From contig NZ_CP109162.1 of NCBI RefSeq assembly GCF_035920445.1, positions 2,170,001 to 2,234,000 of the forward strand: DNA of 64,000 bases, written 5' to 3'. This DNA is from Nocardia sp. NBC_01730 (GTDB taxonomy: Bacteria > Actinomycetota > Actinomycetes > Mycobacteriales > Mycobacteriaceae). The stretch's first letter is position 1, and the number at the start of each line of letters is the position of its first letter. A program made the position numbers and the translations under genes. Shown one piece after another: positions 13,380 through 54,305 of the stretch. Under the pieces are notes generated by a model, which saw nothing but the letters and a program-made list of their open reading frames with translations, ran no database searches and was not told the DNA's origin.

Positions 13380-14705
13380 ATGCATACACGCAGACGCCGA
13401 CGAGGGTGGGCCGCGCTGTCCGCCGCGGCGGCCGTGTTCGCGGTGTCCGGCGTTTCCTCTGCTCAGCCACCCGGGCATGTGCCGGAGCTCGGTGCGGATT
13501 TCCTGTGGGGTGTGTCAGCGTCCGGGTTCCAGTCCGAAGGGCATGCGCCGGACAGCAACTGGCGGCGCTATATCGCCTCGGGTGAGACGGCGGACCCGTA
13601 CCACGATTCGGTGGACTTCACCCGCCGCTACATCACCGACATCGGTCTGGCGGAGCGGCTGGGGGTGAAGGTCTACCGGGTGGGTATCGAGTGGGCGCGG
13701 GTGCAGCCGGCGCCCGGTACCTGGGACGAGGCGGCATTCGGTTTCTATGACAACGTGATCGCCCGGATCGTCGCGGCCGGAATGCGGCCGATGCTGACAT
13801 TGGATCACTGGGTGTATCCAGGGTGGGCGCTGGAACGTGGCGGGTGGCGCAACCAGGGGATGGTCGAGGACTGGTTGGCGAACATGCGCAAGGTGGTGGA
13901 CCGTTACGCCTCGCGCAATCCGTTGTGGGTGACGTTCAACGAACCGGCGGCGTACGTCGGCACCGAATTGCGCACCGGCGGGATCAGCGTCGAGGAGGCG
14001 CCGGTGATGCTGGATCGGATCGCGCAGGCGCACAACGAGATCTACGATGCCATCCACCGGTGCCAGCCGGACGCACAGGTGACCAGCAATCTGGGTTATG
14101 TGGCCGGTGCGGAGACCGAGGTGAATCAGCCGATCGTCGATCGGATCGCGGCGAAGTTGGATTTCATCGGCGTCGATTACTATTTCGCTCGGCTGCCGGA
14201 GACCGGGGCGTCGGCGCAGGGTGGCGCCGAGGGCGGTCCGCCGCTCTGGGAGTTGCCGGTGCATCCGGAGGGTATCTACCACGCATTGCGGCATTACGCG
14301 CGTCAGTTCCCTGATCGACCGCTGTATGTGGTGGAGAACGGCATACCGACGGAGAACGGGCAGGCTCGCTCGGACGGTTACAGCCGTGCCGACCATCTGC
14401 GGGACACCGTGTACTGGCTGCAACGCGCGACGGCCGACGGCATGAACGTGATCGGCTACAACTACTGGAGTCTCACCGACAACTACGAGTGGGGCTCCTA
14501 CGCACCGCGATTCGGTCTCTACACGGTCGATGTGCTGACCGATCCGACGCTGGCTCGCCGCCCGACGGACGCGGTCGACGCGTATACCCGGCTTATCCGT
14601 GCGGGTGGGGTCGACCCGGCTTATCGGCCGACCCGCGCCCCGGTTCCCTGCCTGGAGATCGACGCGCCGGAAGCGTGCCCCGAGGACGGATCCGCCGAGG
14701 AGTGA
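13380..14705 (+). CDS. Secreted glycoside hydrolase family 1 enzyme (beta-glucosidase-like)
   Basis: 441 residues. An Arg-rich N terminus and hydrophobic segment (residues 1-28, AALSAAAAVFAVSGVSSA) form a Sec or Tat-like signal peptide. The body is GH1: FLWGVSASGFQSEG at the N terminus, acid/base glutamate in WVTFNEP (E188), nucleophile in YVVENG (E319), and YNYWSLTDNYEWG. It should hydrolyse beta-linked glycosides outside the cytoplasm by the retaining mechanism; the sugar specificity cannot be read here. Most bacterial GH1 enzymes are cytoplasmic, so the export signal is noteworthy. It is a single gene. Confidence 0.9.
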   Translation: MHTRRRRRGWAALSAAAAVFAVSGVSSAQPPGHVPELGADFLWGVSASGFQSEGHAPDSNWRRYIASGETADPYHDSVDFTRRYITDIGLAERLGVKVYRVGIEWARVQPAPGTWDEAAFGFYDNVIARIVAAGMRPMLTLDHWVYPGWALERGGWRNQGMVEDWLANMRKVVDRYASRNPLWVTFNEPAAYVGTELRTGGISVEEAPVMLDRIAQAHNEIYDAIHRCQPDAQVTSNLGYVAGAETEVNQPIVDRIAAKLDFIGVDYYFARLPETGASAQGGAEGGPPLWELPVHPEGIYHALRHYARQFPDRPLYVVENGIPTENGQARSDGYSRADHLRDTVYWLQRATADGMNVIGYNYWSLTDNYEWGSYAPRFGLYTVDVLTDPTLARRPTDAVDAYTRLIRAGGVDPAYRPTRAPVPCLEIDAPEACPEDGSAEE

Positions 14706-23670: not shown

Positions 23671-23749
23671 CCGCGCTGACGCGAGCCCACTGCCACACGG
23701 TTCTCAGTGGTCGCGGGCGACGGGAGCCGGGGCGATTCCACCGGGTGCA

Positions 23750-24817
23750 TCATCCGATGATGTCGGCACCGGGGTGAGCGAGGCTCCATTCAGACCATTT
23801 CGAGAGATAGCCGTCCGGGGCTTGGGACAGCTGACGACCCAGATGCGGACCGCTGTGACAGGCGCCGAGATGATCCCAGGTGCCGCCGAGATGGTCGATG
23901 AGGCTGCCGGCGCGGAACTCGACGGCAGCCTCGTCCAGCTCGCGTTCGAAGACCAGCCCACGGAAGTCGCCCGCCAGGGTGAACAGCAACGGTCGCTTAG
24001 CGAGTTCAGTCTGCAGGACGCCGCCGTGCGAACGCAGTGCGGCCACCGGTATCGCGATCGCGGCGCCCGTGGCCGCGTCACCGGCGCCCAAGACCAGCTC
24101 CGCCGGCGGCAGTCGATGATCGATGAGTGCGGGACTGTGCAGGCGCACCTCGCGCAGACTGGTGTGGGCGGCGTCGGGATCGAGCACCCCGGGCAGGTGC
24201 GCCACATGCGGACGGATGCGCATCTCGTCACCGGCCAGCGCCACGGTCGTCGCAGGGAAGTCGCGCGACCAGGAACCCCAGTGGTCGATGAAGGCCGGGA
24301 GCCGGCGCAGCTGCGCGCCCGCGAGCGGTCCGCTGTGCGCGCGGCCGGTGAACGGATGCCAGCGGCTGTGCGTTTCGACATCCGCGATGGTGAAGGTGCC
24401 GAGCGCCCGGTACGGGCTGTTGGCTGTTCGCTCCACCAGGCTGAATACCAGTGGCTGCGCGCTGTCGCTGTCGGGGATCGGAACGAACGCCGATGTCGCA
24501 CTGCATGCCTCGCACAGGCTCAACACGACCGGGGTGCTGGGAAACCACGGATAGCCCGGTTCACCGGTGCCGGTCATCGCCTCGGTCCACAGGTAGCCTT
24601 CAGGCTCCTCGGACAGCAGAAACGTATCGTTGACCAGGTGGTGGTTGGCGAGGATCCACCACGGATAGGCTCGCGCCTGCGCACCGACGAGCACGCCGAC
24701 CACCGGATCGTCGTCACGCATGTGACCCGCGTGGTTCGCATCGACGACCGGCGGGTTGTTCAGCGGCAGGAACCACGGCCGCTTCCGCGCCGGGGAGAAG
24801 CCGTCGGCGCGGCTCAT
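23750..24817 (-). CDS. DUF3179 domain protein, last gene of the Rieske/LeuCD operon
   Basis: 355 residues with the DUF3179 pattern: NPPVVDANHAG, VVGVLVGAQARAYPWWIL, NHHLVNDT and a central LCEACSATSAF with two cysteines. No signal peptide is evident. The family has no established biochemical role. Its ATG overlaps the stop of the preceding synthase gene (ATGA), so it belongs to the operon that starts with the Rieske oxygenase. A C-terminal region after ~220 is not familiar to me. An enzyme or binding role in the same pathway is inferred only from coupling. Confidence 0.75.
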   Translation of the reverse strand: MSRADGFSPARKRPWFLPLNNPPVVDANHAGHMRDDDPVVGVLVGAQARAYPWWILANHHLVNDTFLLSEEPEGYLWTEAMTGTGEPGYPWFPSTPVVLSLCEACSATSAFVPIPDSDSAQPLVFSLVERTANSPYRALGTFTIADVETHSRWHPFTGRAHSGPLAGAQLRRLPAFIDHWGSWSRDFPATTVALAGDEMRIRPHVAHLPGVLDPDAAHTSLREVRLHSPALIDHRLPPAELVLGAGDAATGAAIAIPVAALRSHGGVLQTELAKRPLLFTLAGDFRGLVFERELDEAAVEFRAGSLIDHLGGTWDHLGACHSGPHLGRQLSQAPDGYLSKWSEWSLAHPGADIIG

Positions 24818-26052
24818 CGGAAATCGCCGCCTTCGTTCCTGCCGAGGAAGGCGAACAGTTCTTCCTTGTCGATGATCGGCTCATTGCGCTCGTAGGCAAC
24901 GGATTTGACCCAGCGCAACGCCGAGTCGAGTTCACCATCGGTGAGGACGATGCCGTGTTGTGCGACCACCGCCTGCAACACCCTTTTGCTGGCCAGCTGA
25001 GTGATCTCGATCCGCGGCTCTACTCCCAGCACGGCCATCGGATCGAAGGGACGGAACACACCTCGATCCAGGAATGGTGTGCCGGTGGAGATCGAATTCA
25101 CGCCGGTGCCGCAGATGGGGTCGGTAACCTTCAGCGGCACCCCGGTGATGCGACTGACACTCGCAGCGATCGGCACGACCCGGTGCAGATCGGGAGGCTG
25201 CTCCCACAGGTCGACGGGCTCCCCCACCGCGCTCTTCACGGAACAGACGACGCCGGAGAGTGCGACGATCACTTGTTCGGTCGCCGCGAGCCCGTTCCGC
25301 TCGCCCAAACCCATCCAGGAGGACGCGACCACACGGACGCCCTGCGCCACCGATTCCATGATGTTGGCCAGCGCAAAGCCGAGATCGTTGTGCAGATGGA
25401 CCCCCACCACCGCGTCCGCGATGCTGGGATCCGCGCACAGCCGTTCCACGAAATCTCTGGTCTGCCGCGGAAAGAAACGCCCGGCGGTATCGCACACCTT
25501 GACGATCGATGCTCCCGCCGCATCGAGCGCGGCAACGACGTCCGCGACGTACTGGGGTTCGTTGGCGTCCGCGCCGGACAGTGCCACGTCGATCGGGATA
25601 CCGCCACAAGTGTCGAGGGCGTAGGCGAGGCAGTCGAGACCGCGCTGGAGTGCCTGCGCCCGCGACGCCATGCCCAGCGCGTGCGCCAGCGCCTCGGACG
25701 CGGGGATCCAGAAGGTGATCCGGGGGTGTGCGGCGTCGCGCAGCGCGGTCCGTCCGAGGTCGATATCGTGCCGCGTGGCTCGGCCGTGCGAGGCGAGCGA
25801 GCAATTGTCGACACTCTCGGCGAGCACCCGCATGGCCTGCACCTCTTCGGGGCCGATCGCGGGGAAACCTGCGGCGAAGATCACCTGGCTCGGCCCTTCG
25901 GAGCCGAAGATGCCGCCGGTCTCACAGGCGATGAGCGCGCGTTCGGACCCTCTCATGATGGTCTTCGCCTGCGCTCCGTCGCGCGCGCACTCCTCCCAGA
26001 TCACAAGTCTGCCACGGGATGCGGCCTGTTTCGGCCGGTCGTGTGCGCCCAT
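24814..26052 (-). CDS. Alpha-isopropylmalate/homocitrate synthase-like (HMGL) enzyme
   Basis: About 412 residues, a DRE-TIM metallolyase. The strand-1 motif is EECARDGAQ where LeuA-type enzymes have DTTLRDGEQ, so Arg-Asp-Gly are kept but the following Glu is Ala. AGFPAIGPEEVQAM, the metal-binding HLHNDLGFALAN and GLGERNG are clear. Such enzymes condense acetyl-CoA with a 2-oxo acid; the oxo acid here is unknown. It lacks the C-terminal regulatory domain of LeuA. It lies 22 bp after leuD-like and overlaps the DUF3179 gene. Start chosen at ATG 26052, preceded by GGAGAGGAC. With LeuC/LeuD it can make and isomerise a 2-alkylmalate. Confidence 0.85.
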   Translation of the reverse strand: MGAHDRPKQAASRGRLVIWEECARDGAQAKTIMRGSERALIACETGGIFGSEGPSQVIFAAGFPAIGPEEVQAMRVLAESVDNCSLASHGRATRHDIDLGRTALRDAAHPRITFWIPASEALAHALGMASRAQALQRGLDCLAYALDTCGGIPIDVALSGADANEPQYVADVVAALDAAGASIVKVCDTAGRFFPRQTRDFVERLCADPSIADAVVGVHLHNDLGFALANIMESVAQGVRVVASSWMGLGERNGLAATEQVIVALSGVVCSVKSAVGEPVDLWEQPPDLHRVVPIAASVSRITGVPLKVTDPICGTGVNSISTGTPFLDRGVFRPFDPMAVLGVEPRIEITQLASKRVLQAVVAQHGIVLTDGELDSALRWVKSVAYERNEPIIDKEELFAFLGRNEGGDFR

Positions 26053-26074
26053 GGGACGTCCTCTCCGATGATGT

Positions 26075-26677
26075 TTATCGACCCTGGTAGACCCACGGTC
26101 GACGGTGCTGGTCGCGAGACCGGAAGTCGGCGATGGCGCCACTGTGCGCCCGGATCAGGTCGATGGCCGTGCGGCCGGTACCCAGCAGCGTGCGGTGCAC
26201 GGTCGTCAGCTCGAATCGCACCGAGCGCCCGTCCGGGAGCACGACCGCGGTCCGCGCGATATCGATGGTGAGGGCGATAGTCGTGCGCGCGGTGATCATG
26301 GCGGCGATCTCGCCGATCCAGCTGCTCGGCAACATCACGGGCACGATCTGGTTCTGCACGCAGTTGGCGGCGAAGATGGATCCGAAGCTCGGCGCGATGA
26401 TCGCTTCGATGCCTGCGTCCCGCAGCGCCCAGACCGCGGCCTCACGGGAACTGCCGCAGCCGAAATTCGCCCCGGTGAGCAGCAGGCTCGCCGCGCGAAA
26501 TTCCGGGCGTTCCAACACGAACGGTGCGTCGGACCGGCCCCGCCAGCAGGCGAACAGGTGCCGGCCGCAGTCGTCGCCCGCACGGGGCGGAATGTCGCGG
26601 GAACGGATGATGAGATCGGTGTTCACATTATCGATCAGCAGGGGAGCAACCACCCCGGTGCGGGTCGAGCCGGCCAT
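26075..26677 (-). CDS. LeuD-like isomerase small subunit
   Basis: 200 residues, the swivel-domain subunit of an isopropylmalate isomerase-type enzyme. Visible are DNVNTDLIIRSRDIPP, GANFGCGSSREAAVWAL and IIAPSFGSIFAANCVQNQIVPV, all typical of LeuD. It pairs with the upstream LeuC-like subunit, whose stop overlaps its start (TGATG). It is probably not the leucine-pathway enzyme: the operon also carries a Rieske oxygenase and ligase and lacks leuB. The divergent operon context suggests a specialised 2-alkylmalate or related hydroxy-diacid as substrate. Confidence 0.88.
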   Translation of the reverse strand: MAGSTRTGVVAPLLIDNVNTDLIIRSRDIPPRAGDDCGRHLFACWRGRSDAPFVLERPEFRAASLLLTGANFGCGSSREAAVWALRDAGIEAIIAPSFGSIFAANCVQNQIVPVMLPSSWIGEIAAMITARTTIALTIDIARTAVVLPDGRSVRFELTTVHRTLLGTGRTAIDLIRAHSGAIADFRSRDQHRRPWVYQGR

Positions 26678-28083
26678 CAGAGCGCTCTCGGGTCGGTGAT
26701 CGCGCCCGCCACGGCCGAGGCGGCTACGGTAGCCGGGCCGGCCAGGTGGGAGCGCGCCGCCGGCCCCTGGCGGTGCTCGAAGTTCCGGTTCGTGGTCGTG
26801 ATCACGCGGCGGCCGCCGAATCCTTCCCCTCCGGCGTAGAAGCACATCGAGCACCCCGGCTCCCGCCAGGCGAAGCCTGCGGCGACGAATACCTCGGCAA
26901 GACCCTCGAGTTCGGCTCGGCGCTTCACCTCCTGTGAACCGGGCACGCAGATCGCTTGCACGCCTGGGGCGACCGTCCGGCCGTGCAGCACCGCCGCCGC
27001 CGCACGCAGATCCGACAGGCGACTGTTCGTGCAGGATCCGATGAACGCCACGTCGATCGGTATGCCGAGAACCGGCTGTCCAGGGGAGAGCCCCATATAG
27101 CGCAGCGCCCGGTCGATGTCGTCGGCCCGTATTCCTTCGGGCGCGGGGACGCAGCCGCGAACCGAGACGACTTGCGCCGGGCTCGTCCCCCAAGTCACCT
27201 GCGGGGCGACAGAATCGCAGGCGACCGACAGTGCCGCGGCATAGGGTGCACCGGGATCCGAGAACAGAACACGCCACTGGCTCAGCGCTTGGTCCCAGGC
27301 GGGTCCCGTCGGGGCATGCGGTGTGCCGGACAGGAACTCGAAGGTCGTGTCGTCCGGGGCGACAATCGCCGTGCGCGCGCCGAATTCGACAGCCATATTG
27401 CAGATCGTCAAACGCTCCTCGATCGACATACGCCGCACCACGTCTCCGGTGAATTCGACCGCGTATCCGCGCGCTCCGTCGGCGCCGACCACACCGATCA
27501 GATGCAACACCAGGTCTTTGGCGGTCGTGCCCGCCGGCATCGATCCGGTCAACTCGATCCGCATCGGGCGCGGCGCTTCCATCAGCACACATCCGGTGGC
27601 GAGCGCGTACTCCAGCTCCGTCGTGCCGACGCCCCAGCCGAGCGCTCCGACTCCGCCGACCGTGCAGGTGTGACTGTCATTGCACGACAACGTCATTCCC
27701 GGCAGCGCGATCCCGGTCTCGGGCGAGATCACATGGACGATGCCCTGACCGGGATCGTTCACATCGAACAGGCGCAGCGCGTGCCGGCGCGCTCCCGCGC
27801 GCAGTTCACCGATGAATGTCGCACCACCCGGCACCGATGTCCGATCGGTGCGGCCGGGCTTCGTCTCCACGACGTGATCGACCGTCGCGAACACCGACTC
27901 CGGTCGCGCCACGGGTGTGCCCGCGTCGGTCAACTTGCGCAATACCAGCCCACCACCGCGGTCGTGCAGCATGAGTCGATCTATATGCAGGACACAGGCG
28001 CCACCGCCGAGGTCGGCCACCACATGCTGCGCCCAGATCTTGTCGATGACGCTCGACGGCGCTTTTCGCGTCGTTGTGTCCAT
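26677..28083 (-). CDS. LeuC-like isomerase large subunit (aconitase family)
   Basis: 468 residues. Three cysteines expected to hold the [4Fe-4S] cluster are seen in FIGSCTNSRL and PGCSMCFYAGGEGFG; the active-site region is CNDSHTCTVGGVGALGWG. In ordinary LeuC the second cysteine motif is followed by a Met-Asn-Pro-Asp type sequence, here replaced by FYAGGEGF, which could alter substrate choice. Function: stereospecific dehydration and rehydration of a malate derivative together with LeuD. The stop of the adenylating enzyme overlaps its ATG (TAATG). The first residues (MDTTTRKAPSSVIDKIWAQH) match the LeuC N terminus. Confidence 0.88.
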   Translation of the reverse strand: MDTTTRKAPSSVIDKIWAQHVVADLGGGACVLHIDRLMLHDRGGGLVLRKLTDAGTPVARPESVFATVDHVVETKPGRTDRTSVPGGATFIGELRAGARRHALRLFDVNDPGQGIVHVISPETGIALPGMTLSCNDSHTCTVGGVGALGWGVGTTELEYALATGCVLMEAPRPMRIELTGSMPAGTTAKDLVLHLIGVVGADGARGYAVEFTGDVVRRMSIEERLTICNMAVEFGARTAIVAPDDTTFEFLSGTPHAPTGPAWDQALSQWRVLFSDPGAPYAAALSVACDSVAPQVTWGTSPAQVVSVRGCVPAPEGIRADDIDRALRYMGLSPGQPVLGIPIDVAFIGSCTNSRLSDLRAAAAVLHGRTVAPGVQAICVPGSQEVKRRAELEGLAEVFVAAGFAWREPGCSMCFYAGGEGFGGRRVITTTNRNFEHRQGPAARSHLAGPATVAASAVAGAITDPRAL

Positions 28084-29615
28084 TACGCACCGTCGATCTC
28101 GGCCGCCAGCATGGTCGCAATCTGTGCCACAGCGGGTTTCCCGTTCGGCGTGACGGGTAGTTCCGGCCAGATCGCGATGTGCGCGGGCACCGCGGATGTG
28201 GGCAGCGCGTGCACCAGTTCCGTCGACAGCTCGGCCGCTTCGACACCATCGCGGGCCAGCACGGCGACGGCGACCGCCGTGCGGCCGTCCACGCGCACGC
28301 CCACCGCGACGGCATCGACAACCTCGGGGTGCGCGGCGAGCGCACTCTCGACCTCGGTGGGCCATACTCGGGTCCCGTCATCGAGCGTGATCACCCGGGA
28401 CCCACGGCTCTTGATGTAGACGTAGCCGTCTTCATCCTGGTAACCGAGGTCGCCGGTGTAGACCACCGTCTGTCCGGGGAAGGCGCCGTGGGTACGCAGT
28501 TCGGCCGCCGTCAGTTCCGGCCGACCGAGATAGCCATGCATGATCCCGGGCCCGATATGGGCGATCTCGCCGACGGTCCCGACCGGTGCCAGTGCCTGTT
28601 CATCGCGCGCGATGAACAATGTGGAGCCCTCGACAGCCCTTCCGACACTGTCGATCCGGTGCCGGTGCTCCGGTGCGTTGATCGGAAAGTGCGTCATCTG
28701 CCGCACCTCGGCCTGCCCGTAGATCTCGAAGACACGGACACCGGGACCGAGACGGGCGAACAGTTGCCGCAGACGTGAACGCGGCATGTGCAGTCCACCG
28801 GTGAAGATGTAGCGCAGCGTCGGAACATCGCCGAACAGCGGCTCGTCGACGGCGCCGGTCGCCAGTGCGGCCGTCCACATCGGCGTGGCCCCGCCGAGAC
28901 CGGTGATCCCCGACCGCCTGATCACGTCGCCGAGTTCCTTGCCCCTGGCCCGGCTCAAATGCAGTGCCGCGCCGGTGAACAGCGCACTGAAGATCTGGAC
29001 GAGACCGAGATTGCTGCCGAAACCGACGTTGCACAACAGCCGGTCGTTCGCCGTGATCCCACTTCCGGCGATCTGCACGTCGGCGAAGTGCTCCAACCCC
29101 CGACGGGTGCCGAGGACGGCTTTCGGGCGCCCGGTCGACCCCGAGGAAAAGTGTGCCTCCGCGATGCCCGGAAAACGGGCAGAACCGGCGCGAACCTGGT
29201 CCACCGACCGGTCGAGGCCGCCGGGCCGCACTCGAATCGGGGGGAATGCCGCCCGGTCGTCGTCCGACAGCAGCCCGGTGCCGAACTCGTCGACAAGCAC
29301 TCCGACGGGATCCATTCGCTCGACGAGCCATCGCCGATCGGCGGGCGAGAACCGTTCACTGAGAAAGCAGAACGCGGCACCTTGCAGCAGCAGCGCACAG
29401 GCCACCGCGACGGATTCCGGGGTCTGCCGGGTGAGCAGCGGCACCAGGTGGCCGGGGCCGACGCCGAGCGCGGCGAGTTGCCTGCGGTACCGGCGGACCG
29501 CCACCCGCAGCTCACCGAACGTCATCACTCGCGGGGGCGTGTGTTCTTCGTCGACGACGGCAGGGCGGTGGTCCGGCCAGGCGGCAAGCGCGGTCGCGAG
29601 TCGTTCACCGAACAT
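28083..29615 (-). CDS. Stand-alone acyl-adenylating enzyme (ANL superfamily)
   Basis: 510 residues, no carrier domain attached. Motifs: HFSSGSTGRPKAVLG (A3), EIYGQAEVR (A5, Gln-Ala instead of the usual Thr-Thr or Thr), YTGDLGYQDEDGYVYIKSRG (A7-A8) and the A10 lysine in VTPNGKPA. It should activate a carboxylate as an adenylate and pass it to CoA or to a carrier protein. The substrate is unknown. No ACP or PCP gene is in its operon, whereas the nearby PKS begins with an unloaded-looking ACP, so transfer to that ACP is an attractive inference. It overlaps the Rieske gene by 11 bp and the LeuC gene by one base. Confidence 0.85.
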   Translation of the reverse strand: MFGERLATALAAWPDHRPAVVDEEHTPPRVMTFGELRVAVRRYRRQLAALGVGPGHLVPLLTRQTPESVAVACALLLQGAAFCFLSERFSPADRRWLVERMDPVGVLVDEFGTGLLSDDDRAAFPPIRVRPGGLDRSVDQVRAGSARFPGIAEAHFSSGSTGRPKAVLGTRRGLEHFADVQIAGSGITANDRLLCNVGFGSNLGLVQIFSALFTGAALHLSRARGKELGDVIRRSGITGLGGATPMWTAALATGAVDEPLFGDVPTLRYIFTGGLHMPRSRLRQLFARLGPGVRVFEIYGQAEVRQMTHFPINAPEHRHRIDSVGRAVEGSTLFIARDEQALAPVGTVGEIAHIGPGIMHGYLGRPELTAAELRTHGAFPGQTVVYTGDLGYQDEDGYVYIKSRGSRVITLDDGTRVWPTEVESALAAHPEVVDAVAVGVRVDGRTAVAVAVLARDGVEAAELSTELVHALPTSAVPAHIAIWPELPVTPNGKPAVAQIATMLAAEIDGA

Positions 29616-30954
29616 GCGGCCCGGTCTCCGTCGTGCGGGCCGGACGGGCGTGTTCGGGAATCGTGTCCCAGGTGGCGAGGGCTTGCTCGATGAGCTCGGT
29701 GTCGGAGCTCCAGCCGTATTCGCCCGCGATTCCGCTGACCTCGCCCGGTCCTGGCTTGTAGATCGGGCGGGTCACCATGCCGTGTTTGATTCGCTCGCGA
29801 GGGAAGTCGACACACACGTTGGCCGCCGGATCCCGGAAGATGTTCATCGGCTCGTCACCCCGCTCCAGCTTGTGCAGTTCGCGTAACAGCAGCTTTCGGT
29901 ACTTGATGATGCCGGTGTCGGAGACGCCCAGCTTCTCCCGATCGCGCTCAGCGATGGCACCCTGCTCCACCCAGGCCATGTAGTCCTGGTTGAAGCTGAA
30001 ATTCAGGATCCAGTCGCCGAATTCGTCTTTCAGTGGTACGTAGCGATACGGGATCTGCCGCTGCCGAGGAGCTTTGGTTCCGGGCGCAGTGGGAAAGACG
30101 TAGAGCGAGATGTGGTTGGTGTGCGTGTCGTCGATCGGCACCCGGAATTGCATCGTGTAGGCGAACTGGCAGCCGGTGACGAGGATATGCGGAAAGATCA
30201 CCGGATGGCCGACCGTCCAGTCCTCCTCGGTTCCGATGTCGCCCTCCACCATCCGCGCTTTCGCCATGCCGTATTCGAAGTCGTAGAAGCGAATTCGACG
30301 ATGCCGCTTGCCCGCTGTCGGGCCGAGCCCTTCGAACCGGGTCTCGTCCCCCATGTTCGTGACCTGGCGCAGATAGTTCGGGTAGTTGGTGTGCAGCCAC
30401 TCGGTGTGCACCGGATCGAGCGAATTCTCCTGGCACTGAAGCCAATTGCACGGTAGCTCGGCAATGGAGATGTCACGCACGGCCTCGTCCCACACCAGCG
30501 GCGCCCACCGCGGCAGCAGCGGCGCGGATCCGGCGCCGAGATATGCCCACACCAGCCCCGCAAGTTCCTGGACCGGATACCCGGGTATGCCGCAGCTACG
30601 GGCGAAATGATCGTTGCCCTGCACGGTCATCTCGAAGGGCTGGTCGATGCACGAACCATCGGCGGCGAACTTCCAGCCGTGGTACGGGCATCGGATGCCA
30701 TCCTGCTCGACCATGCCCAACGCGAGGTTCACCCGACGGTGCGAACAGTAGCGATCGATCAGCCCCAGTCGCCCACCGCGATCACGGAACAGCACCAGAT
30801 CTTCGCCGAGCAGGCGCACCTCCTTGGTGCGCAGCGGGCTGGCGTCCAATTCCGCGACGGGCGCGATCGGATGCCAGTAATGACGCATCAATTCGCCCAT
30901 CGGGGTTCCGCTACTCACCCGCACGAGGCGTTCATTGTCGGACGATTTCAACAT
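29605..30954 (-). CDS. Rieske-type non-heme iron oxygenase, large subunit
   Basis: About 449 residues. The Rieske [2Fe-2S] ligands are CSHRRVNLALG...CPYHGW (C-x-H and C-x-x-H). The catalytic mononuclear iron motif is ENSLDPVHTEWLH, with two histidines. Such proteins hydroxylate or demethylate using O2 and electrons from a reductase; no reductase or ferredoxin gene is adjacent, so an external one must serve. It resembles phthalate dioxygenase-like one-component alpha subunits rather than benzoate-type ones. I start at ATG 30954 (MLKSSDNERLV); ATGs at 30984 and upstream are alternatives. It is the first gene of a six-gene overlapping operon. Confidence 0.88.
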   Translation of the reverse strand: MLKSSDNERLVRVSSGTPMGELMRHYWHPIAPVAELDASPLRTKEVRLLGEDLVLFRDRGGRLGLIDRYCSHRRVNLALGMVEQDGIRCPYHGWKFAADGSCIDQPFEMTVQGNDHFARSCGIPGYPVQELAGLVWAYLGAGSAPLLPRWAPLVWDEAVRDISIAELPCNWLQCQENSLDPVHTEWLHTNYPNYLRQVTNMGDETRFEGLGPTAGKRHRRIRFYDFEYGMAKARMVEGDIGTEEDWTVGHPVIFPHILVTGCQFAYTMQFRVPIDDTHTNHISLYVFPTAPGTKAPRQRQIPYRYVPLKDEFGDWILNFSFNQDYMAWVEQGAIAERDREKLGVSDTGIIKYRKLLLRELHKLERGDEPMNIFRDPAANVCVDFPRERIKHGMVTRPIYKPGPGEVSGIAGEYGWSSDTELIEQALATWDTIPEHARPARTTETGPHVR

Positions 30955-31206
30955 CGGGCACCCTATGACTTTCCCGAGCAGCATGTGACTCAGGTAACGT
31001 ACCATTGGATAACGGCCCAATCAATGAGGTGTGAAGTTTCTCCGGTCCGCTGCACGGAGTCTCCAAGGCGTGCAATTAGACTGCTAGGCAAGGGGTTCGG
31101 CGTGCCACCAGAGAGCAGGACACCCGAGCCCGGTGCTGGAACTATCGTCGGCATCCCGCGCCCATCACCGAATCCGCGCCGAGAAGAAAGGAACCAGCCC
31201 GGCGAC

Positions 31207-32622
31207 CTAGATCCTCCGCGCCGGGTGTTCTTCGGGGTTCCGGTCGGCGAGCGCCTTGGAGCCGGGACGTCGACTGCCCGAGCGGCGCGTCCCGAGAACG
31301 GCTCCGTACGCGACGCCTGCGACAAGGGATCCGACCAGGCTCAGCGGCACCGTGCGGTAGAAGCCCTCGGGCAGGAAGTCCTTCCCCCAGAAATTCACCG
31401 CAAAGCCTGCGAGGAAGCAGGCGAGCGCCGGGATGCGCCACCGGTCGGCGAAACCACGCGCAGGGCGGAAGTAACTGTCGACGTCGCGTTTGTCGACCAA
31501 GCCCCACAGCCAGTCGACGATCATGACGAAGGCGAACGGGCCGAGCAACTCTCCTGCGCCGGTGACGAACACCTCGGCGTGCGTCAGGATGCCGGCCTGG
31601 GCCAGCAGGACACCGAGAACACCGAGGACGACCGTGACGACGGGCTGTTCCCAGCTGCGCGGTTTGCGCACCGTGTTGAGGGTCACGAGCAGGTCGACGG
31701 TCGAGGGGTAGAGATTCATCGCGTTGGTATGCAGTACGGCAAGCGCCGCGCCGATCGCCGCCACCGCGCCCCAACCCGTGATCTGCGCGCCGAGGACGGC
31801 GATGTTCCAGTCGCCGGTCGCCTCCTGCGAGTAGGCGCCCATCACGCCCATGATCACGGTGGGCATCATGATCCCAAGGCTCGGCATCACGAAATACCAA
31901 GTCCGCTTGACAGTCCGGTCGGCAGGCAAACAGAAGCGCGAAATCGTCGACGTCTTATATGTCCAGGACAGAATCGAGAACCCGGCGACCGCGGAAACCG
32001 CCGTGCCCCATGCCATCGGAGCGGTCTGGCGCGGAACGTGCAGCGAGTAGTGCGTCGCCAGATAGACGGTCAGCGCGGCGTAGCAGACGATGAACAGCAG
32101 CGCCGTGTAGCGGTAGAAGTACTCGAGCCACTTGAACCCGAACAACACGAGCACGATATCGATGCCGCCGACGATCCAGTACCACGGTGTCGCAGTGGTG
32201 TGCCACAACGCCGCGATGATGAGGGCGCCAGTGGCAGTGTTCAGCCCGAAAAAGACCATATTGACAAAGGAGAACAGCGCCGAGAGCAGGAACGTCGCCG
32301 ACCATCCGTAGGTGCGGCGAGCGACCACCAACGCCGTGAGCGGCAGCTCACGGCCCATCTCGGAGAACAGGCCACAGGGAATCAGGAAGATCAGCCAACT
32401 CACCACGATCGCGCCGATCATGTACCAGAGCCCGAAGGGATACAGAATCGCGCCGATCAGTGGTGTCATCGCGGAGCCGGACGTCATGGCCCAGACAATG
32501 AACAACTTTCCCGGCGTGGCAATGCGTTGGCTGTCGGGTACGGGCGCCACGCCGACCGTCTCGACTTCGCCACCTACTCGCCGCAACCACGAATCGGAGT
32601 CGGCAGCACCGGCTTCGTTCAT
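31207..32622 (-). CDS. NCS1-family nucleobase:cation symporter-like permease
   Basis: 471 residues with about 12 hydrophobic helices. It has purine-cytosine permease features: TPGKLFIVWAMTSGSAMTPL in the first helix, then SILSWTYKTSTISRFCLPAD. NCS1 proteins import nucleobases, allantoin, hydantoins or related compounds with a cation. The gene lies 250 bp upstream of the Rieske operon on the same strand and is divergent from the TetR/MFS pair, so it may import a substrate or act in the same cluster. Ends with an Arg-rich hydrophilic tail. Confidence 0.82.
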   Translation of the reverse strand: MNEAGAADSDSWLRRVGGEVETVGVAPVPDSQRIATPGKLFIVWAMTSGSAMTPLIGAILYPFGLWYMIGAIVVSWLIFLIPCGLFSEMGRELPLTALVVARRTYGWSATFLLSALFSFVNMVFFGLNTATGALIIAALWHTTATPWYWIVGGIDIVLVLFGFKWLEYFYRYTALLFIVCYAALTVYLATHYSLHVPRQTAPMAWGTAVSAVAGFSILSWTYKTSTISRFCLPADRTVKRTWYFVMPSLGIMMPTVIMGVMGAYSQEATGDWNIAVLGAQITGWGAVAAIGAALAVLHTNAMNLYPSTVDLLVTLNTVRKPRSWEQPVVTVVLGVLGVLLAQAGILTHAEVFVTGAGELLGPFAFVMIVDWLWGLVDKRDVDSYFRPARGFADRWRIPALACFLAGFAVNFWGKDFLPEGFYRTVPLSLVGSLVAGVAYGAVLGTRRSGSRRPGSKALADRNPEEHPARRI

Positions 32623-32843
32623 CGGGTGAATGTACCGTCAATCAACGGCTCATTCAACAGAGGCTGAATTGGGAGCAGGCAGGCTCCGGATGAGTTCTCG
32701 GCGCGGGAAGCGTCGCCGGTGCGGCCGTGCGCGCACGTCGCTCGTCGACGGTCCTGAAATCACGACGGCAGTGGTGCGCAGTCGATCCGGATAGCAGACG
32801 GTCGGTTTGCCGCGCCCAGGACCGCCCAGATCCGCCCCAGAAC

Positions 32844-32886
32844 TTGCAGTTTCTGAAATTTTGCAGTTTGTGCTAAATTTTTGCGC
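32844..32886 (+). promoter_or_regulatory. Repeated motif upstream of the TetR gene
   Basis: TTGCAGTTT occurs at 32844-32852 and 32861-32869, each followed by nTG and an AAATT-type stretch, and TTGCGC starts at 32881. The repeats fill the 40 bp before the tetR start and would suit an autoregulatory operator. The palindrome is not clear. Confidence 0.4.
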
Positions 32887-35138
<2,252 letters not shown>

Positions 35139-38427: not shown

Positions 38428-39089
38428 TCGGGCCGCTCCAGCACCTTGCCGACCCGGAGCCAGGTCGGTCTTCCGCTGATCTCCCGCCACCACCGCGCCA
38501 GGTTCGGCCGCGCAGTGATCAGGTCCGCGCCGTTGGAGGCGACCAGATACTGCAAATAGGGCAGCCAGGTGACCTCGGCGAGTGAGAACTCGGGGCCGGC
38601 GAGGAACTCCTGTCCGGCCAGCGTGGCGTCCGCGACGTCGAATGGTGCGGCCAGCGCAGCGCGGGCCGCGGCGATCGCGTCCTGGTCCGGGGGCGGCGGC
38701 AAAAGCGGCGCCGCGGGGCTTTCCCGGATGATCTCGTAGACCGGCCCGCCGCGGACCAGCTCCCAGACCGGGCCGCTGACATAGCTTTGCTCGATGCTGA
38801 TCCACTGTTCCATCAGCCCGCGCAGCTGGAGGTGATCCGGCGTCAGCGCGGGGCCCGGCAGCCGCTGATCGAGATAGCGGATGATCGCCCGCGATTCATA
38901 CAGCAGGAACCCATCGTCTTCGAGTACCGGAATCTCGCCGAAGGGCTGGCGTTCCCGGTGTTCGGGCGACTTGTCGTGTCCTTGGAGGACACTCACCTCG
39001 ACCAGCTCGGCGTGTTGATCTTTCTCCGCGAGCACCATCAGCACCTTGTGCGTGCACGCGCTGGTGGCCGTCCCGTATACCTTCATCAT
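38424..39089 (-). CDS. Glutathione S-transferase-like protein in the PKS operon
   Basis: 221 residues with a thioredoxin-like N-terminal domain (MMKVYGTATSACTHKVLMVL, then GEIPVLEDDGFLLYESRAI) and a helical C-terminal domain. YESRAI is the glutathione-binding Glu-Ser motif. Actinobacteria of this group generally use mycothiol, not glutathione, so a GST may here serve as an isomerase, cyclase or dehalogenase on a polyketide intermediate. The ATG at 39089 overlaps the PKS stop (ATGA). Function within the cluster is inferred. Confidence 0.8.
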   Translation of the reverse strand: MMKVYGTATSACTHKVLMVLAEKDQHAELVEVSVLQGHDKSPEHRERQPFGEIPVLEDDGFLLYESRAIIRYLDQRLPGPALTPDHLQLRGLMEQWISIEQSYVSGPVWELVRGGPVYEIIRESPAAPLLPPPPDQDAIAAARAALAAPFDVADATLAGQEFLAGPEFSLAEVTWLPYLQYLVASNGADLITARPNLARWWREISGRPTWLRVGKVLERPE

Positions 39090-42076
39090 GATCCATTTTC
39101 TCCCTGCGCAGCGAGCACCTTCAGCAAGTACCGAGTGATCGCCCGTGGAGTCGGATGATCGAAGGCCAGGGTCGCCGGCAGCGCGAGGCCAGTTCGCGCG
39201 GCCAGTTCGTGCCGCAGTTGCACCGTCATCAGCGAATCCATGCCCAGTTCCATGAACATGCCGTCGACCGGCACATCGGAAGGCGAAGCCAACTGGAGCA
39301 CGGCAGCCGCGTCTGCGCGCACGGCTGACTCGATCGCGGCCTCCTGCTCGCCGTCCGGCAATTCGATCAGCTCCTCGACCCAGTGCACCGGCTCCACGGC
39401 CGCCTGTTCTCTCGGCGGTTCCGTGGCGTCGAGCCAGTAACGCCTGCGCTGCCACGGATACCGCGGCAACGACACCACCCCGCGGCGATCCCGGTAAAGG
39501 CCGGCGAAGTCCACCGGATACCCCGCGGTGTAGAGCTCGGCGACCGAGTTGAGCAGACCGTGCAGTTCCGGGCGCTCCCTGCGCAGGGTCGGTATCGCCG
39601 CTCCCCTGCCGAGACAGTTCGCGACATGGCCGGACAGCACCGGATGCGGTGCTATCTCGAGGAAAACCTGCTGCCCATCTCTGGCCGCGGCGTGCACAGC
39701 CTCGGCGAACCGGACCGGATACCGGACATTGTCCGCCCAGTAGTCCCCGGTCAATTCATTTCCGGCGATCCGGCCGCCGCGGGCCGTGCTGTACAGGGGG
39801 CACACGGTACGACCGGCTTCGACCGTGCCGAGTTCCTCCGCGAGTTCGACGGCCAGCGGCGCCATCGACGGCGAGTGGAACGCGTAGTCGACCGGTAGCC
39901 GGCGGCAGCGAACGCCTCGTCGCTGCAGCGGGTCGAGCACCACGTGCAGCTCGTCCACCGTGCCGGACAGCACGACGGACCTGTCGTCGTTGACAGCCGC
40001 CACCACGACCGAAGTGTCCATTGTCGACATCGAGGCCGCGATCTCATCCTGGCTGAGCGCGACCGACACCATCGCCCCCGAACCGTCTGCCTGGGCCATG
40101 ATGCGGCCCCTCGCCACCACGATCCTGATGGCTTCCGCAAGAGTCAGCGCACCCGCGACCTGCGCGGCGGCGATCTCGCCGACACTGTGCCCGATGACCG
40201 CGTCCGGTCGAACACCCCATCTGGACAGCAGGGCGGACAGCGCGATCTGAATGGCGAACAGCGCGGGCTGGGCGATCTCCGTGCGCTGTAACCTCGACCG
40301 GTCCGGCGGCGCGGCCAGTTCCTCGAGCAGCGAGAACGACGCGTTCTGCGCGATGAGCTCATCGCATCTACCGAGCGCGGTGGCGAAGACCGGCTCAGTG
40401 GCTTGCAACTGCCGTCCCATGCCGATCCACTGCGCGCCCTGTCCGGAGAAGACATAGGTGAGCGCGGGCGGTGCGCCGACTCGGGCCGCGGTGACACCAT
40501 CCCGCGCCAAGGCGCGCAGCTTCTCGGCCAGCTCGGTTGCGGACTCGCCGACCACCGCGATCCGCCGCTCATGATGATCACGCCGGGCGCCCGCGGTGTA
40601 GGCGATGTCGTGCGGATCGCTCTGCCGCTCGAGGACACTCGCGTGTGCCGAAGCCAGCTCGGTCAGTGCCGCCCGGCTTCGTGCCGACAGCGGAAGCAGA
40701 ATCGGTCCGGCGTGCGGTGGCACCTGCTCGGCGGTGGGCGCTTCGGCGACGACGACATGCGCGTTGGTGCCGCTCATGCCGAACGAGCTGACGCCGGCGA
40801 TCCGTGGCCGCTCGCCTTCGGGCCACGCGATGGCCGTCTTCGGTATCACGAATGGTGTTCCGGTCAGGGAAATCCGCGGATTCAGAGTGCTGAAGTGCAG
40901 GTTGCGGGGGATCTCCGCGTGCCGCAAGACCAGCACCGCCTTGATCAGTCCAGCGATACCGGCGGCGGCCTCGAGATGCCCGATGTTGGTCTTGACCGCG
41001 CCGAGCACACAACCGCCGCTGTCCGGATCCGACTCGCCGAAAACCTCGGTCAAGGCCTCGATCTCCACGGGGTCCCCGAGCGCGGTTCCGGTGCCGTGGG
41101 TCTCCACGTATCCGATGTCGCCAGGGCGCACGCGCGCATCGGCGAACGCCTGACGCAGCATGTCCTGCTGCGCCAGTGGATTCGGCGCGGTCAGTCCGGC
41201 CGAGCGACCGTCCGAGTTCATCGAGGAACCCCGCAGCACGCCGAGCACCCGATCACCGTCGGCCAGCGCGTCGGACAGCTTCTTCAGCACCACGATTCCG
41301 CAACCCTCGCCCCGGACGAACCCGTTCGCGCGCGCGTCGAACGTGCGGCAGCGGCCGTCCGGTGACAGCGCCTGCAGATCCGCGACCATCTCGGTCACCG
41401 AGTCGTCGAGAACGAGGTTCACCCCGCCGGCCAGCGCGAGCGAGCTCTCCCCTGTTCGCAGGCTCCGGATCGCCAGGTGCACCGCGACCAGCGACGACGA
41501 GCACGCGGTATCCACCGACAGACTCGGCCCGCGCAGCCCGAGCAGGTACGACAACCGGCCTGCGCCGAAACTGTGGGCTGTTCCAGTGCCCGCGTACCCG
41601 CCCATAGCGCCGGATCGGGCGCTGAGCAGCAGGTAGTCGTTGCCGCTCATACCGACGAACACGCCGGTTCTGCTGCCGGCCAGCCGCTCGGTCACCACTC
41701 CGGCGTCTTCCAGCGCCTCCCATGCGACTTCGAGCAGCAGCCGGTGCTGCGGGTCCAGCGCAGCGGCCTCTCTCGGCGAGATCCCGAAGAACGCCGCGTC
41801 GAAACCGTCCACAGCGGACAGAAAGGCCCCTGTTCTCGCGGCATCCGCGGTGGCGCGGGCTGATCGCTCGGAGACTGCGTCGACGCCGTCGGAAAGCAGT
41901 GTCCAGAATGATTCCGGGTCATCGGCGCCGCCGGGGAAGCGGCAACCCATGCCGATCACCGCGACAGGTTCGGTGTGCAGCCGCGTCAGCCGCGCGACCT
42001 CGGCCTCCAGACTGCGCAGCGCGGACGCGGCTTTGACAAGACGTGAGCGGTAGCCTTCCTCGTCGACGAGGGTCAC
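39086..42076 (-). CDS. Type I modular PKS, one module: KS-AT-ACP
   Basis: 996 residues. An N-terminal coiled-coil docking helix (KAASALRSLEAEVARL) precedes KS (~37-460; Cys192 in DTACSSS, HGTGT, KTNIGHLE), AT (~540-850; GHSVGE with Ser ~629, YAFHS, mixed between malonyl and methylmalonyl signatures) and ACP (GMDSLM, Ser ~946). No KR, DH, ER, MT or thioesterase, so it adds a beta-keto unit and does not release by itself. Probably the last module of the line. The GTG start overlaps the stop of the upstream PKS (GTGA), and its stop overlaps the GST-like gene. Catalytic residues look intact. Confidence 0.95.
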   Translation of the reverse strand: MTLVDEEGYRSRLVKAASALRSLEAEVARLTRLHTEPVAVIGMGCRFPGGADDPESFWTLLSDGVDAVSERSARATADAARTGAFLSAVDGFDAAFFGISPREAAALDPQHRLLLEVAWEALEDAGVVTERLAGSRTGVFVGMSGNDYLLLSARSGAMGGYAGTGTAHSFGAGRLSYLLGLRGPSLSVDTACSSSLVAVHLAIRSLRTGESSLALAGGVNLVLDDSVTEMVADLQALSPDGRCRTFDARANGFVRGEGCGIVVLKKLSDALADGDRVLGVLRGSSMNSDGRSAGLTAPNPLAQQDMLRQAFADARVRPGDIGYVETHGTGTALGDPVEIEALTEVFGESDPDSGGCVLGAVKTNIGHLEAAAGIAGLIKAVLVLRHAEIPRNLHFSTLNPRISLTGTPFVIPKTAIAWPEGERPRIAGVSSFGMSGTNAHVVVAEAPTAEQVPPHAGPILLPLSARSRAALTELASAHASVLERQSDPHDIAYTAGARRDHHERRIAVVGESATELAEKLRALARDGVTAARVGAPPALTYVFSGQGAQWIGMGRQLQATEPVFATALGRCDELIAQNASFSLLEELAAPPDRSRLQRTEIAQPALFAIQIALSALLSRWGVRPDAVIGHSVGEIAAAQVAGALTLAEAIRIVVARGRIMAQADGSGAMVSVALSQDEIAASMSTMDTSVVVAAVNDDRSVVLSGTVDELHVVLDPLQRRGVRCRRLPVDYAFHSPSMAPLAVELAEELGTVEAGRTVCPLYSTARGGRIAGNELTGDYWADNVRYPVRFAEAVHAAARDGQQVFLEIAPHPVLSGHVANCLGRGAAIPTLRRERPELHGLLNSVAELYTAGYPVDFAGLYRDRRGVVSLPRYPWQRRRYWLDATEPPREQAAVEPVHWVEELIELPDGEQEAAIESAVRADAAAVLQLASPSDVPVDGMFMELGMDSLMTVQLRHELAARTGLALPATLAFDHPTPRAITRYLLKVLAAQGENGS

Positions 42077-45000
42077 GGCAGCTCCCCGCTTTCGAGCCGG
42101 TCGATCGAACCATCGATCTGCGCGAGAAGGTCGTCTATGGCCAGGTCGTCGAACTCGTCGGTGGCCGCCTGCGGCTCTGCCATGCCGAGCACGCCGAGTA
42201 GCTGTTCGGTCAGTGCTCGCACCGTCGGCGCGGCGTACAGCAGCGTCGCGGACAGCCGGACGCCCAGCGCCGACTCCAGCCGGTTCCGGAGTTCGAGCGC
42301 CATCAGCGAGTCGACTCCCGCGGCAGTCAGCGGCGCCTTCCGGTCGATGAGAGCGGCGTCGAGGTGCAGGATCTGGCCGAGTTGCTCAGTCACGACGGCG
42401 TCGATCAAGCTCGGGCGTTCGGCAGGGGTGGCCGCACGCAGCCGGTCTGCGAACCAAGGAGCCGATGGCACCCTGCCGCTCTCCCCGCCGTCGTCAGGGA
42501 GTTCCGCGAACAGCGACGCACCGGCCGAAGCCGGGTAGAACGCCAGCCACTGTCGGAGATCGAGATCGGCCGCCGCGATCTGACTGGTGCTGCCACTCAG
42601 CAGCCGACCGAGGATGTCCATGCCTTGCTCGGGGGTCAGGGTGCCGACCCCCCGATGCGCGAGGCGCTCCCCTTCCGCGTTCCGTCCTGCCATGATGCCT
42701 TCCTGCGAGTACAACCCCCAGTCCACGCACAATGCCGTCAGGCCACCGTGTTCCCGATGCCGCGCGAGCGCGCCGAGGAATGCGTTGGCGGCCGCGTAGT
42801 TGGCCTGTCCCGGTGAGCCGAGCAGGGCCGCGGCCGACGAGTACATCACGAAGAACTCCAACTCTCGGTCGCCGGTCAGCTCATGCAGATTCCATGCGCC
42901 CCGCATCTTGGGTGCCAGCACGCGGTCGTACCGTTCAGCGTCCAGTTCCAGAATGGTTCGATCGTCGAGCACCATGGCCGCGTGCAGCACTCCACGCAGT
43001 GGCGGCATCCGCTCGTCGATATCCGAGAGCACCCGGGCGACGTCCTGGCGCCGGGCCACGTCCGCCCGCGCGACCACGACCTCGACGCCGTCCCTCCTGA
43101 GCTCAGCGATCCTGGCCTGCACGTCCGGAGCCGGATCGTGCCGTCCGGCCAGCACGAGGTGCCGCGCCCCGCGCGCGGCAAGCCAGGCCGCCAGGCCGAT
43201 GCCGAGCCCGCCGAGCCCGCCGCTGATCAGGTATGTCCCCCCGCTGAGGGTCAGCTCGGCGTTTCCGGTCTCGAACGAGGCCCGTACCAGCCTGGCCAGG
43301 TTCCGCCCTTCCTCGCGTAACGCGACCTCGTCTTCGCCGTCCGCCCCGACCAGCTCGGGGAGGAGTTCTGCAGCGGAACGGCTTCGCGCCCATCCCGATT
43401 GGAGGTCGACCCGCGTGCACTCCAGTTCGGGATGTTCGACGCTCAATGTCCTTGCCAGACCCCACAACGGCGCTTGCGACACCGCGACCGGTTCGCGGCC
43501 CACCTGCTGCGCTCCCTTGGTGACCAGAAACAGCCGGGGCTGGTCCCGCAGGCGAAGGCGAACGAGCGCGCGGACCAGGCGCACCGTGCTGAGGCCGGTG
43601 ATCTGCTGATCGGCGGTCAGCGTGTCGGCGGTGACGTGTTCGGTACCGGTGGTGTCCAAGCTCCACAGGTGCACCACCCCGACGCAGGCCCGCCCACCGT
43701 CGGCGACGTTGTCGAGCAGCGCGCTCCACGCATCGTCGTCGGCGATATCGATGTCCTCCTTGTCGAGCAGTACGCAGGTCTGGCCACGCTGTTCGAGCAG
43801 CGTGGCCAGCGACGTGCCGACACCGGTGGAATCGGTGAGCACCAGCCAGGTCCCGACAGCCCTTTCACCGGGATCCGGTGCCACGAGCCGTTCCCCCACA
43901 CGCCATGTCACCTGGTAGAGCCAGTCCCGGTAGGGCTCTGCTTCGGCAGGTCTTGCCACCGTGAGCCCCTCGACCTCGACCAGCACCGTTCCGTCCTCGT
44001 CGAGGACCAACAGATCCCCACTGTCCTCGGTGGACCGTGCGCGCGCGTGTACCCACACGCGGCCACCGGGTGGCCGGTGGACGCGGAGCCGGTCGATCCG
44101 CACCGGTATGACCCCGCCGGTCGCCCGTCGGTCGAGCAGCACACCCCCGAGTACCTGGAAGCAGGCGTCCAGCAGCGCCGGGTGGCAGACATATCCCGAG
44201 GGCGACCCGGCCAGCTCGACCAACGCAACGCCCTCACCGTCACCGGCCCAGATCCGTTGCACACCACGGAAAGCCGGGCCGTAGCCGATGGTTCGCCTGG
44301 CATACCGTTCGTAGTGCTCGGCCACGGCGACCTCGGTGCGGCACCGGTCCCGCACCGACGATGGCGGCTCGGCCGTCGGTGGCCCGTCGTCGCTCACACG
44401 AACCGTTCCGTGCGCGCACGGAACCCACGGCTCGTCTCTCGTCGCTCGGCCGTAGACCTGAAAACGGCCGGAGTCGTCGATGAACTGGACGTGTCCGGAG
44501 CCGTCCTTCCCGAGAATCGCCATCCGGTCGAATGCGAGCTCCTCCAGCGCCGACGATCGCCCGAACGCACCGAGCGCCATCTCCACGTAGCCCGACGCCG
44601 GGAACACCACCACGCCGTCCACCGTATGGTCGGCCAGATACGGCAGATCCAGTTCGCGCTCCCAGATCCGGGTGCCCGGCGAGGTCGCCGGGCTGACCGG
44701 CTCACCGAGCAATGGATGCCCATGATCGGCGCGGGGACCCGGAACTCGGTCCACCCAGTGCCGCTCGCGCCGCCACGGGTAAGCAGGCAGCGGCACGCAG
44801 CGCCCGCCCCTCGGGTGGAGCGCGGACCAGTCCACCTGGCGGCCCCGGACATACAGCGCCGCAAGCGATTCGAGAAACACCGCGCGCTCGTCCTGTTCGC
44901 GCCGCCCGGACGGAACGGCCGTGCCCCCGTCCTCTTCGATCGAGGGCAGCAGGATCGGGTGCGGGCTCAGCTCGACGAATACCGTGCGCCCCTGCGCCAT

Positions 45001-53944: not shown

Positions 53945-54305
53945 AGATAGGGCCACCTCCAGCAACCAACTAGATCTTGGCGTGTCGCCGGCGGCTCGCC
54001 TGAATCGGACCAGATAGTATCCCTGCCGAATTCGCCATGTAAAGGTGAAAGCCGTCTGGTCGGTTTGGGTCTGGATCTGTCGCCTTCAGTACCCGCGCCG
54101 CCAGGATCCGGGCCCTACAATCGCCGCCAGCAGTCAAAACTCTGATAGCTCACGATCATTGAGGTTTTCTCACCGGGCATGAGTGGCTACTTCCCCGATC
54201 TCGAGCAGTCCCGCGAACGACGGCGTATCCAGGTAATCGTCCCGGTTGCAGCGCAAGCGCCTTCCCGAGCCTGCGTAGGTTCGGGCAAGTGCTCCGTTAC
54301 CGCAA
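53945..54305. other. Intergenic region with the PKS operon promoter
   Basis: Contains no recognised gene. A minus-strand frame ending near 54170 (ending AGLLEIGEVATHAR) is short and unassigned. Somewhat AT-rich sequence around 54000-54050 probably holds the promoter for the PKS operon. Confidence 0.4.

Follow-up and report, generated by a model that had tools for sequence, protein, structure and literature searches.

A 64,000-nucleotide stretch of the Nocardia sp. NBC_01730 genome (contig NZ_CP109162.1, positions 2,170,001 to 2,234,000; the whole stretch is called the window below) carries a compact six-gene operon on the minus strand. The genes encode a Rieske oxygenase, a free-standing adenylate-forming ligase, LeuC- and LeuD-like subunits, an HMGL-like enzyme with the LeuA fold and a DUF3179 protein (Table 1). 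All six proteins score above their respective Pfam gathering thresholds. The joints between the genes were taken from the open reading frame (ORF) table and the translations. The Rieske and ligase genes share 11 bp (29605-29615), LeuC and LeuD share 1 bp (26677) and HMGL and DUF3179 share 4 bp (24814-24817). The ligase gene overlaps LeuC by 4 bp with GTG 28086 as the LeuC start codon and by 1 bp with ATG 28083. The sole gap, of 22 bp (26053-26074), lies between LeuD and HMGL. An earlier note on this DNA had treated the six genes as one linked unit, and the coordinates, common strand, joints and an identical gene order in Pseudonocardia sp. TRM90224 bear this out.

Table 1. Genes of the six-gene operon, in transcription order, followed by other genes of the window (window coordinates)
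Gene product	Coordinates	Strand	Family match
Rieske oxygenase, phthalate-dioxygenase-like	29605..30954	-	Pfam Rieske + LigXa_C
Free-standing class I adenylate-forming ligase	28083..29615	-	Pfam AMP-binding + AMP-binding_C
LeuC-like large subunit	26677..28086	-	Pfam Aconitase; NCBIfam PRK12466, PRK05478 above cut-off
LeuD-like small subunit	26075..26677	-	Pfam Aconitase_C
HMGL-like (LeuA-fold) enzyme	24814..26052	-	Pfam HMGL-like
DUF3179 protein	23750..24817	-	Pfam PF11376, 91.6 bits vs gathering score 27
NCS1-type permease	31207..32622	-	
Cytochrome P450	37222..38805	-	
Type I polyketide synthases (three genes)	39089..53965	-	
Amino acid permease	54409..55878	-	
Glycosyl hydrolase family 1	13380..14702	+	

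The Pseudonocardia locus (L013) was found in a pattern-based scan of a genome collection with an HMGL alignment, which yielded 67 loci. All six genes are present there on one strand and in the same order, with identities to the window of 83% (Rieske), 61% (ligase), 70% (LeuC), 61% (LeuD), 68% (HMGL) and 67% (DUF3179). Third codon positions diverge more than first and second positions in all six genes; the values for the three positions are 0.135/0.090/0.384 for the Rieske gene and 0.198/0.193/0.460 for the DUF3179 gene. The shared order and strand, together with this third-position excess, indicate that the operon is more than a chance arrangement. The search for the six families in this order that the earlier note had proposed thus has a second case.

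The operon-type proteins are uncommon among close relatives. HMGL was found in 1 of 148 genomes of the genus (E up to 1e-30), the Rieske enzyme in 1 of 150 (E up to 1e-150) and the DUF3179 protein in 1 of 397 genomes of the order (E up to 1e-10), each time the window's own genome only. Further Nocardia strains beyond those genus genomes carry operon-type proteins, judged from the names of protein matches. For each of two protein searches the best 120 matches were considered, and genes were assigned to the same contig by equal longest-contig size and source among the matches listed, where short contigs could agree by chance. By this measure HMGL, Rieske and ligase genes apparently occur together on contigs of 145189 and 12082 nt, HMGL, ligase and DUF3179 on contigs of 110294 and 273018 nt, and HMGL, Rieske, ligase and DUF3179 on a contig of 9883 nt. 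At 42-55% HMGL identity, HMGL, Rieske and DUF3179 apparently share contigs of 2976144 and 16169 nt, HMGL and DUF3179 a contig of 30384 nt, and HMGL and Rieske contigs of 28122, 41536 (a Myxococcota metagenome-assembled genome) and 14018 nt. The contigs of 2976144 and 16169 nt are probably alphaproteobacterial, as their HMGLs group in a tree with one named Stellaceae. This suggests that HMGL accompanies a Rieske and/or a DUF3179 gene in more distant genomes as well. The 19 matches of a search with a piece of the ligase include none on the distant HMGL contigs and, elsewhere among distant matches, P0259 alone (34%); close ligase relatives turned up solely near the window. Some Rieske relatives, such as those of Nocardia colli (77%) and N. 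brasiliensis (69%), have no HMGL listed for their contig. No second copy of the operon emerged from plasmid searches (HMGL, ligase, DUF3179, LeuC and Rieske queries) or from viral scans with HMGL and DUF3179 alignments. The cassette is rare and patchily distributed, and it has probably spread horizontally.

The operon HMGL keeps R25, D26, Q29, H220 and H222, that is, the TIM-barrel DRE-TIM fold with the R-D-G-x-Q and H-x-H motifs of 2-isopropylmalate synthase, and its sequence match to isopropylmalate synthase 3rmj extends to residue 373. The catalytic residues differ. The Glu corresponding to Glu227 of methylthioalkylmalate synthase is present in 0 of 25 HMGL rows; the loop His (His388) is also present in none, with Pro in 24 rows and Ala in one. 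The LeuA-type SGxH..G loop was found in 0 of 120 HMGL homologues among the matches listed; E. coli LeuA has one. A passage of a study of methylthioalkylmalate synthase (PMC11532901) reports that Ala mutants of the Glu and the loop His are inactive and that Gln and Asn substitutions keep some activity. The description of this enzyme as LeuA-like in the earlier note therefore stands for the fold and the metal/oxo-acid site and fails for the Glu and the loop His. The best fold match is the methylthioalkylmalate synthase BjMAM (PDB 6e1j); compared with that system, the operon HMGL has a dissimilar catalytic loop and the operon has no transaminase or dehydrogenase. One HMGL homologue (P0032) is a 692-aa protein that combines HMGL and methyltransferase Pfam domains.

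Other HMGL relatives belong to a separate conserved two-gene module of Actinomycetota and Planctomycetota, in which a YrdC/Sua5-like gene is the partner (L020-L079 and L083, e.g., L083:9242-9970). This gene lies downstream of the HMGL relative on the same strand, from an 8-base overlap to 198 bases apart, at 56 of the 67 loci. Two YrdC/Sua5-like partners were scanned against Pfam and one, from a planctomycete, matches Sua5_yciO_yrdC. No work linking YrdC, isopropylmalate synthase and Streptomyces was found in the open-licence literature. In a quick HMGL tree of 186 rows (121 of them unlabelled), the 11 rows labelled as operon-linked lie on one side of a single branch and the labelled YrdC group on the other, with support of 90, which is below the starred level. 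P0003 and P0007 were labelled as operon-linked by their ligase and DUF3179 genes and L013 by reading of the locus; P0002 was omitted because of its length, and P0020 and P0062 form long branches.

The operon LeuC retains the [4Fe-4S] cysteine motifs GSCTN and CSMC. The operon LeuD has SREAA in place of SREHA (His to Ala). In NCBIfam, PRK12466, PRK05478 and TIGR00171 match this pair above their cut-offs, and TIGR00170 and PRK01641 below. With E. coli LeuB as the tblastn query (E up to 1e-4), no match was detected in the 64-kb window or in 21 kb of L013, which agrees with the earlier note's description of an operon without leuB. Among the findings that would refute its reading, that note had counted a leuB homologue constantly found with the operon; none is seen in the two contexts that could be read, the window and L013. 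A separate LeuC gene with LeuD adjoining was found at 3.81 Mb of the same genome (44% identity to the operon LeuC), and an Iso_dh gene about 7 kb away gives a 40% match to E. coli LeuB. A further Iso_dh gene, at 2.09 Mb, likewise shows a 40% match; in all, the Iso_dh matches of the genome number five and are spread over four places, one of them about 98 kb from the operon. The missing leuB and the separate leuC/leuD/leuB-like set make it improbable that the cell synthesizes its leucine through the operon. It shares with E. coli leuABCD a LeuA fold with the metal and oxo-acid residues and a LeuC/LeuD pair with Fe-S cysteines; it differs in having no LeuB, an HMGL without the Glu and His, and additional Rieske, ligase and DUF3179 genes. 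The operon LeuCD does not seem to serve leucine synthesis.

The ligase has A3, A5 and A10 type motifs and both Pfam domains, and is a class I adenylate-forming enzyme. Its nearest solved relatives are adenylation domains of non-ribosomal peptide synthetases (NRPS), with coenzyme A (CoA) ligases further down the list. Asn202 aligns with the amino-binding Asp of LgrA domain 1, which we take to be the Asp of the A4 motif in adenylation domains, and the residue looked for in amino-acid-adenylating NRPS domains is thus missing. Three homologues (P0242, P0244 and P0245) also have Asn at this position. Asn is also typical there of aryl-acid adenylating enzymes. The replacement of Asp by Asn fits a non-amino-acid substrate. 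The earlier note had described a free adenylating enzyme, which the free-standing ligase bears out, and had predicted as the activated product an isomerized, possibly hydroxylated alkylmalate or an alkylmaleate.

The Rieske oxygenase carries the cluster ligands C-x-H...C-x-x-H from residue 70 and the iron motif DPVHTEWLH (D-x2-H-x4-H) from residue 180. Its best PDB match is the phthalate dioxygenase of Comamonas testosteroni KF1 (7fjl, 7v25), with which it has the iron and cluster motifs in common. A passage of PMC10511449 gives Ser182, Arg207 and Arg244 as the phthalate anchors of that enzyme. In a phmmer alignment, weak in that stretch, these residues correspond to Thr184, Gly211 and Val248 in the operon protein. 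Phthalate was rejected as the substrate on the ground that the anchor residues are not kept. The genome has 12 Rieske-family matches.

The sequence of the DUF3179 protein is internally duplicated, and residues 102-105 form a CEAC motif. C102 and C105 are invariant across 11 rows, and a search for the patterns C..C and S.WH gave a signature of its own, CEAC at 102 and SRWH at 151. NCBIfam gave no match for the protein. Its structure model weakly resembles Rieske ferredoxins, and this suggests that it may be a redox partner of the Rieske oxygenase. The [2Fe-2S] ligands of Rieske ferredoxins (C-x-H, C-x-x-H) were sought in the translation and none was found. Sequence-profile comparisons did not support a Rieske fold; the best of several, with the C half, gave P 0.008 and a probability of 5%. 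A bolder proposal would make it a duplicated Rieske-ferredoxin-like protein in which the [2Fe-2S] cluster was swapped for Cys-x-x-Cys (probably selenocysteine in some relatives) and which serves the Rieske oxygenase as its dedicated redox partner, the pathway itself being built on a LeuA-fold subfamily with a new catalytic base; we regard this as quite improbable. To our knowledge, thiol or selenol electron supply is not described for Rieske oxygenases. The wider DUF3179 family is widespread in the phylum, with PF11376 in 53 of 296 sampled genomes and an operon-type DUF3179 profile in 18 of 396 (E up to 1e-10). Tables in two reviews list DUF3179 as a selenoprotein family; the motif reported for it is UxxC/T. 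The operon protein shares with this family the Pfam match and Cys-x-x-Cys; it differs in its CEAC and SRWH signature and in sharing an operon with a Rieske oxygenase. In three genomes of the phylum (G708, G591 and G619) the DUF3179 match contains a single in-frame TGA, as selenocysteine would require.

We tentatively favor, at somewhat less than an even chance, a peripheral alkylmalate-type pathway that ends before oxidative decarboxylation, with the acid activated and an O2 step carried out by the Rieske enzyme. HMGL would use its metal to join a 2-oxo acid to an activated unit of two or more carbons, in a LeuA-family reaction with an altered catalytic base. LeuCD would dehydrate and then rehydrate the resulting substituted malate, and without a LeuB step the dicarboxylic acid would be retained as a 3-substituted malate or maleate. 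The ligase would then activate one carboxylate, probably as the CoA ester since the operon encodes no carrier protein. DUF3179 would assist the Rieske oxygenase, as its redox partner or otherwise, in adding or removing a group with O2. Gene content, recurrence in a second genus, family membership and residues are established by the sequences; from them we infer the direction of the pathway, the order of its steps, the substrates, the horizontal spread and the role of DUF3179.

Relatives of HMGL (42%) and LeuCD (LeuC 50-51%) occur together, as in the operon, on the agrobacterial plasmids pAtS4b and pAtG3_79b, where they surround NRPS genes with a HisC-like transaminase and TauD; the operon has no transaminase. 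The HMGLs of both plasmids likewise lack the Glu and the loop His. The agrobacterial At-plasmid regions (L160 and L161) also carry sulfation genes and possibly make a homo-amino-acid building block.

The cassette could instead work in the reverse, degradative direction, which we consider rather unlikely. The Rieske enzyme would start the breakdown of an imported compound, a dicarboxylic acid, unsaturated or substituted, would be hydrated or isomerized by LeuCD and turned into a CoA ester by the ligase, and HMGL would act as a lyase on this ester to give a 2-oxo acid and an acyl-CoA. Of 34 plasmid records with LeuC matches (E up to 1e-118), six neighborhoods were read. Next to the top two matches (56-57%; pJE1 of Sphingomonas sp. 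JE1 and pTomTYG65b of Sphingobium sp. TomTYG65) a CaiB/BaiF CoA-transferase gene precedes LeuC and a 3-hydroxy-3-methylglutaryl-CoA (HMG-CoA) lyase gene lies opposite. These two clusters also hold isochorismatase, polysaccharide-deacetylase-family and isocitrate-lyase-family genes. Acidiphilium multivorum has a LeuCD set resembling them, and in Azospirillum LeuCD adjoins isocitrate-lyase-family and ABC transporter genes. These neighborhoods speak for the degradative direction, as does the gene for an NCS1-type permease that lies on the operon strand, 252 bp upstream of the Rieske gene. In the pJE1, TomTYG65 and Acidiphilium clusters, as in the operon, LeuCD is accompanied by a CoA-activating enzyme and by a member of the broader HMGL family, and leuB is named in none of the four annotated regions (Azospirillum included), the plasmid gene tables being incomplete. 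They differ in having a CoA-transferase in place of the ligase, an HMG-CoA-lyase-type lyase and no Rieske or DUF3179 match (tblastn, E up to 1e-4). The neighboring lyases are of the HMG-CoA lyase or isocitrate-lyase type, and the JE1 HMG-CoA lyase can be aligned with only 86 residues of the operon HMGL (36%); the match of the operon HMGL to isopropylmalate synthase 3rmj extends as far as residue 373. The HMGL family is also found beside NRPS genes, the loss of the His would presumably impair the retro-Claisen reaction too, and the permease has no tblastn match in L013. The chain elongation of LeuA/LeuCD type proposed in the earlier note is thus only partly upheld: the NRPS-side relatives fit alkylmalate-type chain building, and the two top plasmid LeuC matches have surroundings that look catabolic. 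From these contexts, relatives of the operon parts seem to be used in both the synthetic and the degradative direction.

The plasmid clusters L155, L156 and L159, which look catabolic, contain genes for a CoA-transferase, LeuCD, an HMG-CoA lyase, an isochorismatase and two polysaccharide-deacetylase-family proteins. One polysaccharide-deacetylase-family protein was scanned and gave a weak PuuE match below the cut-off. Nothing related by title was found among the open-licence matches listed for plasmid pJE1.

A specialized building-block pathway supplying the type I polyketide synthase (PKS) cluster at 39-54 kb of the window is very unlikely. The PKS genes, together with P450 and methyltransferase genes, share the operon's strand at a distance of about 4-23 kb, but divergent TetR and major facilitator superfamily (MFS) genes separate them from the operon, and L013 has the whole operon with no PKS among its called flanking ORFs (three scanned with Pfam). 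A second set for leucine or homo-amino-acid elongation, with its leuB supplied by another part of the genome, is highly improbable: Iso_dh genes do occur at four places, both places read matching E. coli LeuB, but a separate leuC/leuD/leuB-like set is already present, the operon HMGL is about 23% identical to E. coli LeuA without the LeuA base, and leucine needs no Rieske enzyme, ligase or DUF3179; a leucine or homo-leucine role was rejected as unlikely given the missing leuB and this separate set.

Among the other genes of the window, the amino acid permease and P450 genes adjoin the three PKS genes on the same strand, and a glycosyl hydrolase family 1 gene lies on the opposite strand. No Rfam family, riboswitches included, was detected at gathering thresholds across the window. 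A promoter and terminator scan of 23400-33600 gave no promoter-like sites (shuffles 0.8) and three terminator-like sites (shuffles 4.1). A purine link was considered because of the NCS1 permease in the window and a molybdopterin subunit and an amidohydrolase near the L013 operon; it is a weak hint, and the neighbors differ.

In the open-licence literature we found no described pathway with the six-gene set, as the earlier note had supposed. The same literature gave no paper that pairs DUF3179 with a Rieske enzyme, none that brings together isopropylmalate dehydratase, a Rieske enzyme and a biosynthetic gene cluster, and none that names five of the six operon parts. The kinds of enzyme are known; their combination appears to be new. 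The cassette offers a concrete, testable context for DUF3179, for an HMGL subfamily of several phyla that lacks the usual catalytic residues, and for a LeuCD pair that seems to act outside leucine synthesis. If the bolder proposal for DUF3179 is true, the cassette would link O2 activation with thiol or selenol chemistry, and a true link between DUF3179 and the Rieske enzyme would give a large class of oxygenases a new type of redox partner.

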